The notes beneath the pieces were generated by a model. The model was not told the origin of the DNA. It saw nothing but the letters and a program-made list of their open reading frames with translations, and made no database searches. A stretch of 32,199 bases of DNA, from NCBI GenBank assembly GCA_017882925.1, contig JADGOM010000082.1, forward strand, positions 1 through 32,199, written 5' to 3'. Below, piece after piece: positions 7,747 to 29,277 of the stretch (position 1 is the stretch's first letter; each line of letters opens with the position of its first letter). This DNA is from Acidimicrobiia bacterium. GTDB taxonomy: Bacteria > Actinomycetota > Acidimicrobiia > IMCC26256 > Chersky-534. The position numbers and the translations under genes are program-made.

Positions 7747-8246
7747 GCGCCGGGGGCGACGTCGGCCGCGTCGAACTGCGACCAGTCTTCGGGGTTGCGC
7801 TCGGTGTACTCGCCCATCACCGCCGCGTCGACGGCGTCGATCTGCACGAGACCGCGCATGCTCGGCGGCGAGTCGGCGCTGTAGAGCAGGATGCGCCAGT
7901 TGGGCCGGCTGCGCAGGCCCCACCACCCGAGCTGCGCGCTGGCGTGGCCCACGGGGAAGCCGACCGTGCGCGACGCGACGACCAGCGCCTCGGTCTGGTC
8001 GATCTTCACGTTCCACGCGGTGAAGAAGTGGTAGAGCGCGATGACGCCGATGAAGATCGCGGCGGTGAGCAGCCCGGTGTTCTTCGAGTTGAGCCAGCCG
8101 AGCAGGCACCCGAGCGCGATCACGACGTAGAGCCACGCGGCGATGCGCCGGCGGGTGATGTTGGGGAACTCGACCGGCCCCACCCACGCGGTGACGTCGA
8201 GCTCCTCGGGGAGGTCGTCCCCCTGGTCCGGATCGGCGTCGGTCAC
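7743..8246 (-). CDS. two-helix membrane protein of unknown function
   Basis: A 167-residue protein I do not recognise. The acidic N-terminal segment (TDADPDQGDDLPEELD) is followed by two hydrophobic helices at about 35-52 and 57-76. A C-terminal domain of about 90 residues (KIDQTEALVVASRTVGFPVGHASAQ and onward) contains a Trp/Arg patch GWWGLRSRPNWRILLYS, which could be a small beta-rich or PH-like fold (speculative). The GTG start at 8246 lies 10 bp after the HIT stop, so it is probably co-transcribed with thrS and HIT. Its TAG stop shares the bases CTAG with the TAG stop of the EF-G-like gene on the other strand. It occupies the position between HIT and pgsA that is empty in mycobacteria. 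Confidence 0.75.
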   Translation of the reverse strand: MTDADPDQGDDLPEELDVTAWVGPVEFPNITRRRIAAWLYVVIALGCLLGWLNSKNTGLLTAAIFIGVIALYHFFTAWNVKIDQTEALVVASRTVGFPVGHASAQLGWWGLRSRPNWRILLYSADSPPSMRGLVQIDAVDAAVMGEYTERNPEDWSQFDAADVAPGA

Positions 8247-17022: not shown

Positions 17023-18111
17023 TCAGCGGCGCCCGCGTGCCGCGAGCAGCGGCACCATCATCTCGTCGGGGGTCAACGAGCCGTGGGCCGAACGCAGGCG
17101 GGGCTCGCGGGGCATGGCCGGGTCGACGAAGCCGACCGCGTCGCGCGAGGCCAGCACCACGTCGCCGAGCCGGCGCCGCACGGAGCTCGAGGGCGGCGGA
17201 CCCAGCCAGCCCTCGTCGATGAGCTGCTCCCGGGAGAGCACCCAGGCCGACGCGCCCGCTTCGGAGTGGGCGGCCTCCAGCAGGTCGGCCGCGGCCCCGG
17301 ACTTCGCGTAGGCGTAACGGAACCGCGCGTCGCCGGCGTACTGCTCCACGAACGGGGCCAGGTCGTGCAGGTCGATCCAGCTCGACGCGTCGAGGTGGAT
17401 CTGGCCGTGGTCCGCGGTGACGAGCAGCGTGGCGGAGTCGGGGAGCCGGTCGAGGAGCTCCTGCACCAGGCCGTCGACGAACCGCAGCTCGGCGGCGTAG
17501 AAGGCGTCGTGCAGCCCGTGTTCGTGGGCGATGGTGTCGACGCCCGAGTAGTAGGCGTAGACGAACCGCTCCCCCGCGTCGGCCAGCTCGCCGCAGGTCT
17601 CGACCAGGGCCGCGGTGGTCCGGTACCCGCAGAACCGGGACCCGCGCAGGTGGGCCTCGGTGAACCCGGTGGTGCGGAACTCGGCCTTCGTGACCACCGG
17701 GACGGTCCGGCGCAGGAAGGCGTCGTGGCGTTGCACCGTGAACGGGTCCGGTGGGCGGCCCCGCTCCATCTGCCAGGACAGGACGTTCATCACGCTGTCG
17801 TCCATCCGCATCCGGTACCCCACGATCCCGTGCTCGCTCGGGGTGAGCCCGGTGGCGATCGAGGTGAGGGCGGAGCTGGTGGTCGACGGCGCCACCGTGG
17901 TGATCGGGCCGCCGTCGAGCGCCCGCAGCCCCGGGAGGTGCTCCGCGTGGTCAGAGAAGGCGCTCCACCCGAGCCCGTCGAGGACGAGGAGGACGACCGA
18001 CCGGGCGCCGGTCACGGGCTCCGGCATCCACGGCGCCGCGTTGCCGGTGAGCAGGGCGGGAACGATTCCGTTGGTGCAGGCGCCGCCGTACTCCGGCCGG
18101 ATGGGATCCAT
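17023..18111 (-). CDS. alkaline phosphatase superfamily phosphodiesterase/nucleotide pyrophosphatase
   Basis: Type I phosphodiesterase/nucleotide pyrophosphatase-like protein of 362 residues. Metal-site and nucleophile motifs are in order: D45 in VLLVLDGLGW, the Thr-rich nucleophile loop APSTTSSALTS (T77 or T78), HGIVGYRMRMD, YYSGVDTIAHEHG with Asp and His ligands, and TADHGQI with Asp and His ligands. No signal peptide or membrane anchor is evident, so it is probably cytoplasmic. The substrate is unknown; relatives cleave nucleotides, phospholipid head groups or phosphonates. The ATG at 18111 (MDPIRPEYGG) is preferred because TAGCCT ends 7 nt before it; the upstream in-frame extension is of low quality. 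It is divergent from the Rrf2 gene and precedes dnaE on the same strand. Confidence 0.87.
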   Translation of the reverse strand: MDPIRPEYGGACTNGIVPALLTGNAAPWMPEPVTGARSVVLLVLDGLGWSAFSDHAEHLPGLRALDGGPITTVAPSTTSSALTSIATGLTPSEHGIVGYRMRMDDSVMNVLSWQMERGRPPDPFTVQRHDAFLRRTVPVVTKAEFRTTGFTEAHLRGSRFCGYRTTAALVETCGELADAGERFVYAYYSGVDTIAHEHGLHDAFYAAELRFVDGLVQELLDRLPDSATLLVTADHGQIHLDASSWIDLHDLAPFVEQYAGDARFRYAYAKSGAAADLLEAAHSEAGASAWVLSREQLIDEGWLGPPPSSSVRRRLGDVVLASRDAVGFVDPAMPREPRLRSAHGSLTPDEMMVPLLAARGRR

Positions 18112-18118
18112 CGCCAGC

Positions 18119-18124
18119 AGGCTA
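18119..18124 (-). promoter_or_regulatory. possible leaderless -10 box for the phosphodiesterase gene
   Basis: TAGCCT on the minus strand ends 7 nt before the ATG at 18111. No ribosome-binding site is visible. Confidence 0.38.
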
Positions 18125-18230
18125 ACGGACCCCGGGTTGGGCCCGGCTGCACCCTTTGCCCGCCAGCGGGCGGTCCCGAAAGCCGATGGAAGCGTCGCCC
18201 TTTCGTGCCCCGCGTGGGAGACTGCACCCC

Positions 18231-18266
18231 ATGACACCCTGTTGTCCGAGGGCGGAACGCCGGTGA
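18231..18266 (+). CDS. possible Cys-Cys leader peptide (uORF) of the Rrf2-apbE operon
   Basis: An 11-codon ATG ORF, MTPCCPRAERR, has a TGA stop that overlaps the GTG start of the Rrf2 gene in a GTGA tetranucleotide. Both Cys codons are TGT, which is unusual in DNA this rich in GC. A GAGACT hexamer (18218-18223) ends 7 nt before the ATG, the spacing seen at the presumed leaderless starts in this window, although its first base departs from TANNNT. Short Cys-rich leader ORFs that couple translation to cysteine supply are known in mycobacteria, so an attenuator or re-initiation role is plausible. This is an inference from sequence; the ORF could be fortuitous. Confidence 0.4.
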   Translation: MTPCCPRAERR

Positions 18267-18721
18267 AGGTCTCCACGCGCAGCGACTACGCGGCGCGGGC
18301 GTTGCTGTCGCTCGCGCTCCACGGCTCCGACCGCCCCACCTCCGTGAAGGAGATCGCGGAGCGGACCAACCTCCCGCAGCCCTACCTCGAGCAGATCCTC
18401 CTCGCGGTCAAGGGCGCCGGCCTGGTCCGGTCGAAGCGCGGGGTCGGGGGCGGCTACGTGCTCGCCCGTCCGCCGGAGGAGATCACCCTGGCCGACATCC
18501 TGAGCGCGGTCGAGGGTCCACTGATCAACCTCCTCGGCGAGCACGACCACTGCGAAGGCCACTGCGTGCTGCAGGAGGTCTGGGTCACCGTCTCGGAGCA
18601 GACCCGCACCGTGCTCGACGGCTTCACCCTCGCCGAGCTCGTCGACCGCACGCGCGTCGGCCACCCCGAGGTCGCCGCCGAGGTCGACCGCGCCGCGGGC
18701 CGCAAGGTCGCCGCGGGCTGA
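18263..18721 (+). CDS. Rrf2 family transcriptional regulator
   Basis: Winged-helix regulator of 152 residues, the usual Rrf2 length. The N-terminus KVSTRSDYAARALLSLALHG and helix-turn-helix SVKEIAERTNLPQPYLEQIL are typical, followed by the wing GLVRSKRGVGGGYVLARP. Rrf2 proteins often sense redox or NO through a [2Fe-2S] or [4Fe-4S] cluster held by three Cys. Here only two Cys are present in the ligand region, C97 and C101, with H94, H96 and H100 nearby (EHDHCEGHC), so the cluster type or even its presence is uncertain. The GTG start overlaps a possible leader peptide stop. The apbE gene starts 13 bp downstream and is probably co-transcribed and possibly regulated by this protein. Confidence 0.92.
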   Translation: MKVSTRSDYAARALLSLALHGSDRPTSVKEIAERTNLPQPYLEQILLAVKGAGLVRSKRGVGGGYVLARPPEEITLADILSAVEGPLINLLGEHDHCEGHCVLQEVWVTVSEQTRTVLDGFTLAELVDRTRVGHPEVAAEVDRAAGRKVAAG

Positions 18722-18734
18722 CGCCCGCGACCCG

Positions 18735-19670
18735 ATGACTGACCCCCGCGTCGACTCCGACGGCTTCCGGGTCATGGGCAGCGACGCCCACGTGATCCTC
18801 GTCGACGCGCCGGACGGATCCCTCCAGCGGGCGCACGACCGGCTCGACGCGCTCGAGCGCCACTGGTCGCGCTTCCTCCCCGACAGCGAGCTCTCGAAGC
18901 TCAACGCCCGGCCCGGGCGACCCGTCATGGTGTCGGCCGACACCTTCGACGTCATCCGGATCGCGATCGACGCCTGGCGGATCACCGAGGGCGCGTTCGA
19001 CCCCACCGTCCACGCCGCGATGCGCTCGCTCGGCTACGACCGCGACCTGGCGGCCGTGCGCGCCGAGCCGACGCCGCTCGACCCCGGTGGAGCCGACCCG
19101 GGCGCGACACCCGGCTGCGACCGCATCGTGCTCGACCCCGTCGTGCGGATGGTCACGCTGCCACCCGGCGTCACGCTCGACCTCGGCGGGGTGGGCAAGG
19201 GCTACGCCGCCGACCTGTTGGTCCGGGAGCTCATGGCCGCCGGGGCCGCCGGGGCGTGCGTCAACGTCGGCGGCGACCTGCGCGTCAACGGCACGAGCCC
19301 CGACCCGAGCGGCTGGTCCGTCGCGCTCGACCCCGACGACTTCGGCCCCGCGGCCGTCGACCGCGTGCTCCTGCTCCACGCGGGCGGCATCGCGACGAGC
19401 ACGCGGCTGCGGCGCACCTGGACCCACGGCGACGCCACCGTCCACCACCTGCTCGACCCCCGCACCGGGCAGTCGGCGGAGTCCGACGTCGCCACCGTCA
19501 TCGTCATCGCCGGCGACGCGTGGCGGGCCGAGATCCTGACCAAGGCCGCGTTCCTCGCCGGCCCCGACGACGGCCCGGCGCTCCTGGAGCGCAACGGCGT
19601 CACCGGCCTGGTCGTCACCGATTCCGGCGAATGGCGCCCGGCCGCGGGGTTCGACGACTTCCTGCGCTGA
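18735..19670 (+). CDS. apbE: FAD:protein FMN transferase (ApbE)
   Basis: Flavin transferase of 311 residues that covalently attaches FMN from FAD to Thr or Ser in target flavoproteins. Recognised blocks are RWRF-like HWSRFLPDSELSKLN, GAFDPTVHAAMRSLGY, DLGGVGKGYAAD, VNVGGDLRVNG and the Mg/FAD-binding GGIATSTRLRRTW with HHLLDPRTGQSAES. Unlike the periplasmic lipoprotein ApbE of many Gram-negatives, it has no signal peptide or lipobox and starts MTDPRVDSDGFRVMG. It therefore probably acts in the cytoplasm, or on cytoplasmic domains. No target flavoprotein is encoded nearby. It follows the Rrf2 gene by 13 bp, so redox-responsive control is likely (inference). Confidence 0.93.
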   Translation: MTDPRVDSDGFRVMGSDAHVILVDAPDGSLQRAHDRLDALERHWSRFLPDSELSKLNARPGRPVMVSADTFDVIRIAIDAWRITEGAFDPTVHAAMRSLGYDRDLAAVRAEPTPLDPGGADPGATPGCDRIVLDPVVRMVTLPPGVTLDLGGVGKGYAADLLVRELMAAGAAGACVNVGGDLRVNGTSPDPSGWSVALDPDDFGPAAVDRVLLLHAGGIATSTRLRRTWTHGDATVHHLLDPRTGQSAESDVATVIVIAGDAWRAEILTKAAFLAGPDDGPALLERNGVTGLVVTDSGEWRPAAGFDDFLR

Positions 19671-28104: not shown

Positions 28105-29277
28105 CTAGCGCCGGCGGCGGAAGACGCCGCCGAACCGACCCTCGCCACCCTCGTCGTCGTAGAAGCCCTCGTCCTGGGCGCCGGCCTCGCCGGTGCCGAG
28201 CGGCGGGGCGTCGTCGCGCACGGCGTCGCGCAACGTGGCGAAGAACGCATCGTCGTCGAGGACCTCGGAGCCGACCGGCTCGCCCTCACCCGGCGACGGA
28301 GCCAACCACGTGGGTGCGTCCGCCGCCGCGGTGCGGACGTCCCACACCGACGCGGTCTCGGTGGCCACGGTCGAGGTCTTCGCATCGAACGCCGGCGCCG
28401 ATGTGTCGTCGTTGCCGAAGAAGGAGCCCGACGACCCGGGGCCGCCGTCAGCATCGGCGGTGTCGCCGGCCGCAGCCGGCGGCTCGTCGAGCGAGATCAC
28501 CGAGTCGACCTCGTCGTCGGCGCCGGTCGCACCCGACGCCGGCCCACCCCGTCCGATCGCCGGGACGTCCGCAGGGCCGGATAAGCCCGCCGCGCCCACC
28601 CGGTTGTTGGTCGCGGGGGCGGACAGCTCGGGCGACGCGGGCACTTCGATCTGGTGGATCCCCGGACGCGGACCCGGGTCGGGCGCGGGACGCTCGCTGA
28701 TCGCGTTGAGGTCGGCCTCGATCGCGGCGCGGATCTTGGCCCGAAAGTTCTCGTCGTACGTGGACAGCGTGTCGATGTCGGCGAGCAGCGCGTCGCGTCG
28801 GCCGGAGAGCTCGATCACCTCGTGCTCGAGCTTCGCCTTGTGCTCGTCCTGGATCGAACGCGCGCGCGCCTCGGCGTCACCGACGACGGCGGCCGCGTGT
28901 GCGTCGGCGTCGGCGCGCACCTTGCGCGCGTGCTCCTCCGCCTCGGCGACGGTGTCGTCGGCCGTCTTCTGCGCGAGGAGCAGCGTGCGCTGGATGAGGT
29001 CGCCGCTGTCGGACACGGGCGCCGGGGGCGGGGGCGGAGGCGGCGGGGTGACCGCGGCGGCGGCCGCGACGGGAGCCGCCGGCTCCGCTGCCGCGCTGAC
29101 GGCAGGGGCACCCGAGCTCAGCGCGTTGATGCGGTCGGTCAGCTGCAGCACCCGATCGGTGAGACCCTCGATCGTGGTCGCGGCCCGCTCGAGCAGCTCG
29201 TCGACCTCGTCGCGGTTGTACCCGCGGAACTCGGAGCCGATCTCGATGTCACGTAGTTCGCGAGGAGAAACATCCAT
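28105..29277 (-). CDS. divIVA: DivIVA/Wag31-like polar growth protein
   Basis: Coiled-coil scaffold that marks curved membrane at poles and septa and guides peptidoglycan synthesis in actinobacteria. Of 390 residues, the N-terminal lipid-binding domain reads MDVSPRELRDIEIGSEFRGY (1-20) followed by NRDEVDELLERAA. A linker with eight consecutive Pro (78-85) leads to a long coiled coil (about 90-205). After that comes an acidic, Gly/Ala/Asp-rich disordered tail ending in FRRRR. Wag31 of Mycobacterium is about 260 residues, so the tail is long. The ATG at 29277 fits the family start; TACCAT ends 7 nt before it, and an ATG at 29286 would overlap that box. It is the last gene of the division cluster. 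Confidence 0.92.
   Translation of the reverse strand: MDVSPRELRDIEIGSEFRGYNRDEVDELLERAATTIEGLTDRVLQLTDRINALSSGAPAVSAAAEPAAPVAAAAAVTPPPPPPPPAPVSDSGDLIQRTLLLAQKTADDTVAEAEEHARKVRADADAHAAAVVGDAEARARSIQDEHKAKLEHEVIELSGRRDALLADIDTLSTYDENFRAKIRAAIEADLNAISERPAPDPGPRPGIHQIEVPASPELSAPATNNRVGAAGLSGPADVPAIGRGGPASGATGADDEVDSVISLDEPPAAAGDTADADGGPGSSGSFFGNDDTSAPAFDAKTSTVATETASVWDVRTAAADAPTWLAPSPGEGEPVGSEVLDDDAFFATLRDAVRDDAPPLGTGEAGAQDEGFYDDEGGEGRFGGVFRRRR

Follow-up and report, generated by a model that had tools for sequence, protein, structure and literature searches.

In mycobacteria, an ATG or GTG at the 5′ end of a transcript suffices for leaderless translation, and Shell et al. 2015 (PMC4633059) describe an example in which leaderless initiation and coupling are conserved while the peptide is not. 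The short ORF that we describe here lies upstream of an Rrf2 gene in a member of the Acidimicrobiia. It shares with the coupled small ORFs of that work its shortness, a TGA that is part of the downstream RTG start (here GTGA at 18263–18266), and a position that is kept between species while the peptide diverges; its start codon is predicted to be 5′-terminal after a −10 box, as theirs are. It differs in its host, in the Rrf2 gene downstream, and in an atypical −10 box that is missing the first T. By anatomy we place it in this "coupled" class, and it is presumably translated.

A second group with some resemblance is that of the polycysteine leaderless short ORFs, reportedly found in mycobacteria by Canestrari and colleagues in 2020. 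The likeness consists of a leaderless-type position and adjacent Cys codons. The differences are that our ORF has only two Cys, that its Cys tract is not conserved outside the genus, that a regulator and apbE lie downstream instead of cysteine-metabolism genes, and that no structure sequestering the ribosome binding site (RBS) was found in its leader.

The window, by which we mean the whole 32,199-nucleotide stretch of DNA that was analyzed, has these features around the ORF:

17023–18111, minus strand: divergent type I phosphodiesterase gene (PF01663)
18218–18223, plus strand: −10-like hexamer GAGACT (in TGGGAGACT), 7 nt 5′ of the mini-ORF ATG, seen in the sequence, with a weak PWM score
18231–18266, plus strand: mini-ORF MTPCCPRAERR, 11 codons, with its own ATG as predicted transcript start; MKPCCPRAVRR at the same place in the congener
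18240–18245, plus strand: tandem Cys codons TGT TGT
18248–18252, plus strand: GAGGG, a possible weak Shine-Dalgarno for rrf2 at 10 nt spacing, within 19 nt that are unchanged in the congener
18263–18266, plus strand: GTGA stop/start overlap, the same in the congener
18263–18721, plus strand: rrf2 family regulator, 152 aa, with an HCEGHC motif (C97, C101); PF02082 133.6 bits, TIGR00738 above cut-off
18735–19670, plus strand: apbE, FAD:protein FMN transferase family (PF02424, 192.6 bits)

The mini-ORF reads ATG ACA CCC TGT TGT CCG AGG GCG GAA CGC CGG TGA, and its TGA (18264–18266) overlaps the GTG of rrf2 (18263–18265). The sequence-only reading that drew attention to this locus had described exactly this, an 11-codon ORF with two TGT codons and a GTGA overlap on the Rrf2 start. 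It is important not to read too much into the GTGA tetramer alone. Codon 2 begins with A in nearly all rrf2 orthologs, which builds RTGA into almost every rrf2 start, so the tetramer by itself is no evidence. The informative feature is an open frame that starts right after the predicted promoter and enters the RTGA. An Rfam scan of the whole window at gathering thresholds gave no match.

How is rrf2 expressed elsewhere in the class? A strong rrf2 match is present in 46 of the 58 genomes of the window's order and in 184 of 395 genomes sampled from the class, and we compared the upstream regions of 106 Acidimicrobiia orthologs, those 46 plus 60 from other orders. Outside the order, every one of the 60 orthologs has a [TG]ANNNT box 6–9 nt 5′ of the rrf2 start, and within it 31/46 do (91 genomes in total). 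The start call is sound, since the orthologs share the conserved N-terminus [MV][KR]xST[RK]. These boxes point to an rrf2 that is normally leaderless across the Acidimicrobiia, and they agree with published leaderless signatures. In M. tuberculosis, TANNNT is centred 7–12 bp ahead of the mapped starts (PMC3898074), and in Actinobacteria, among other bacteria, it lies around 12 bp 5′ of start codons (PMC3160421).

Thirteen genomes of the order, the two of the window's genus (G000, the window's own, and G001) and 11 others, have instead their −10 box further upstream, followed 6–9 nt later by an ATG or GTG that opens a mini-ORF. Two more fit neither arrangement by a loose hexamer rule: G038 has AAAGAT 6 nt 5′ of the rrf2 start, and in G022 that start is a TTG. 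The 11 genomes outside the genus have 12 strict −10 hexamers at least 10 nt upstream, and 11 of the 12 are followed at 6–9 nt by ATG or GTG, against a background of 9% (binomial P = 4e-11, which is optimistic as inspection preceded the choice of genomes). In the genomes with a direct, leaderless rrf2, the same hexamers are followed by such a codon in only 2/13 cases. Counting the genus once, at least 9 of 12 independent mini-ORFs (10 if an ambiguous one is included) use the reading frame that closes at the rrf2 RTGA, where one third would be expected (P = 0.004).

The peptides are unrelated to each other, and differ even within the genera g19, g27 and g31; examples are MKVAIHP, MHAGTWRAAASPE, VTGSMR, VTEPGAAPVGAPVRNRPGPPHQP, MTCHDQAHPGRRP, VHTEPR and VQLRRSSPTSPRTVIPTSTRP. 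G055 has a coupled ORF starting MHRMYGADG, and the ORFs of G044, G056 and G057 may stop 7–13 nt short, with G057 also offering a coupled alternative. Mini-ORFs with this layout occur in several families of the order. On a quick Rrf2 tree, 9 changes of state are required, but the tree is poorly resolved and only 2 of them are forced. The common feature across these cases, as predicted from their sequences, is leaderless initiation with stop/start coupling, and not a cysteine tract.

A closer view comes from one further member of the genus (G001/L003, same contig as L004), in which 28 of 90 fourfold sites of rrf2 differ from those of the window (31% fourfold divergence). Against that rate, the 3/32 differing bases of the mini-ORF are few (P = 0.004), and a 19-base run, CCCTGTTGTCCGAGGGCGG, is unchanged (P about 0.001). 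GAGACT sits inside a conserved block, and the spacer from GAGACT to the ATG differs at 4 of 7 bases. It had been suggested that the mini-ORF should be conserved in close relatives while flanking bases vary, and the congener does keep the ATG, the Cys codons and the GTGA next to a varied spacer. Promoter and leader thus look constrained between the two congeners. Nothing in this points to the Cys codons in particular, because their six bases would stay unchanged by chance at P = 0.11, because the 19-base run also holds the SD-like GAGGG, and because all three changes in the mini-ORF alter amino acids.

The predicted promoter is a weak point. The hexamer had been likened to the presumed leaderless promoters elsewhere in the window. 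Such promoters do exist, for example TACCAT-7-ATG at 29277(−) and TAGGCT-7-GTG at 8246(−). The 7-nt spacing is indeed the same, and it is also that of the relatives' −10 boxes, but both of these promoters keep the first T, which GAGACT is missing. Its PWM score is −2.1, versus a median of 14.4 for the 32 direct relatives from which the matrix was built. Among sites in the upstream 110 nt it ranks second to third, chance alone would be expected to give a better one, and shuffled sequence often outscores it. A PWM trained on other orders did not pick out GAGACT, and [CA]ACCCT, which lies within the mini-ORF, has a similar or higher score. The 7-nt spacing fits a leaderless start with a weak hexamer, while the other members here have strong −10 boxes. 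As a −10 box GAGACT is a poor match, and its support is positional and comparative.

The divergent phosphodiesterase gene has a leaderless-type promoter of its own, TAGCCT (18119–18124), 7 nt from the ATG at 18111(−). It keeps the first T, and lies about 95 bp from GAGACT.

Taking these data together, we find it reasonably probable that the mini-ORF is an upstream ORF with a leaderless start, and that it is coupled to rrf2. The anatomy, the recurrence of the layout, the frame bias and the conservation in one congener are read directly from the sequences. The leaderless start and the GTGA coupling proposed earlier gain support from the comparison with relatives. The transcription start, the translation and the reinitiation at rrf2 are inferred. 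Transcription would begin at or near A18231, and the 5′-terminal AUG would load a ribosome without a Shine-Dalgarno. That ribosome would read 11 codons, stop at the TGA overlapping the rrf2 GTG, and reinitiate there, perhaps aided by the weak GAGGG. The peptide would be mostly irrelevant; what would count is where the start lies behind the −10 box, and a frame that leads into the RTGA. A leaderless 5′ end would thereby have been kept once the rrf2 start was placed about 30 nt beyond the promoter. Counting against this reading are the weak GAGACT, a conservation that comes from one congener, and a GAGGG that could be an ordinary Shine-Dalgarno. The last point leads to a plainer account, in which the mRNA has its start elsewhere, rrf2 is read from GAGGG as its own Shine-Dalgarno, and the mini-ORF goes unused. 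GC-rich DNA commonly contains open frames of 11 codons, GAGGG is present 10 nt 5′ of the GTG within the unchanged 19 nt, and GAGACT is rivaled by [CA]ACCCT. We still judge this incidental ORF unlikely, given the start-after-promoter layout and frame bias in eleven other genomes, and an rrf2 that is otherwise leaderless nearly throughout the class.

The original proposal went further, to a leader that tunes translation to cysteine supply. Shortage of charged Cys-tRNA would stall a ribosome at TGT TGT and thereby alter the translation of rrf2. The codon is rare (0 TGT vs. 23 TGC in five window genes), the tandem is kept in the congener, and leaderless polycysteine ORFs in mycobacteria reportedly act in this way (Canestrari and colleagues). 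The chance of finding Cys-Cys in a single 10-codon ORF of such base composition is about 0.7%, and this figure takes no account of how many ORFs a reader scans. On the other side, Cys-Cys is found only in the two sister genomes and is missing from all 11 other mini-ORFs at the site, whose peptides are unrelated; rrf2 and apbE are not cysteine-assimilation genes; and the statistics above do not favor the Cys codons. The leader RNA of both congeners folds no better than shuffled sequence (z 0.0 to 0.6), the folds differ between the two over 70 nt, and no RBS-hiding mRNA structure stands out in either leader. Moreover, GAGGG would lie under a stalled ribosome, and the expected effect of stalling is therefore less rrf2, not more. 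We consider such an attenuator improbable, and cysteine control as originally proposed finds no support outside the two sister genomes.

A narrower version, in which a genus-specific gain of the rare tandem TGT turned a coupled leaderless ORF into a cysteine-sensitive gate, we regard as very improbable. If it were true, slow decoding would park the ribosome over GAGGG and cut delivery to rrf2, and perhaps to apbE, and the level of a redox-type regulator would fall when cysteine is short.

The suggested link from cysteine or Fe-S status to protein flavinylation is likewise weak. Among the 106 loci, apbE adjoins rrf2 in three (G000, G001 and G035; downstream sequence is short in some), that is, in the genus and one other genome. 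With 3/106 loci only, a conserved rrf2-apbE operon as a functional unit is ruled out, and the neighbourhood is, on this count, recent or recurrent and not conserved. The apbE of G035 is 49% identical, and adjoins rrf2 separately from the window's genus. A cysteine-to-flavinylation link is thus speculative.

As for the regulator itself, C101, H96 and W107 show no variation among 105 Rrf2 orthologs, and the motif is mostly H-C-E-G-H-C in the order and C-D-H-E-G-Q-C in other orders; EG[HQ]C with C101 is plausible as a putative Fe-S or metal site. In sequence, the solved structures nearest to the window's protein are 4cic and CymR. The protein shares with the CymR/IscR branch its Rrf2 membership and conserved Cys and His residues. 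CymR is also the best-scoring NCBIfam equivalog, and yet the protein falls far below every equivalog cut-off (CymR, NF047409, 102.8 bits vs. 195; IscR, 85.7 vs. 207.6). An indirect role in sulfur metabolism is possible.

We also searched the sulfite/nitrite reductase loci of relatives (L191–L194, L196, L202–L221) for Cys-containing leader ORFs in the order, and found a different conserved leader peptide instead. It is a strongly conserved, leaderless peptide of about 30 aa, (V/M)IRxxGAPSISxGRTPHEVxDE(L/M)CR..., with a −10-like box 6–9 nt (mostly 7) before its ATG or GTG in 18/19 parsed loci, and located 211–303 nt 5′ of the sulfite reductase YGQRQ motif in 17/19. It occurs at E ≤ 0.001 in 31 of the 58 genomes of the order and in one other of the class, is found in neither the window's genome nor the congener, and has no NCBIfam match. 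For sulfur or cysteine sensing, this peptide is a stronger candidate than the mini-ORF of the window.

Most likely, then, the 11-codon mini-ORF merely feeds ribosomes into rrf2, in a layout already known from mycobacteria. At one orthologous site, and in several lineages, a leaderless start would have given rise to a short ORF that is coupled to rrf2. The rrf2 site would be a natural series for studying the origin of coupled leader ORFs, and a caution against inferring amino-acid sensing from a single case.
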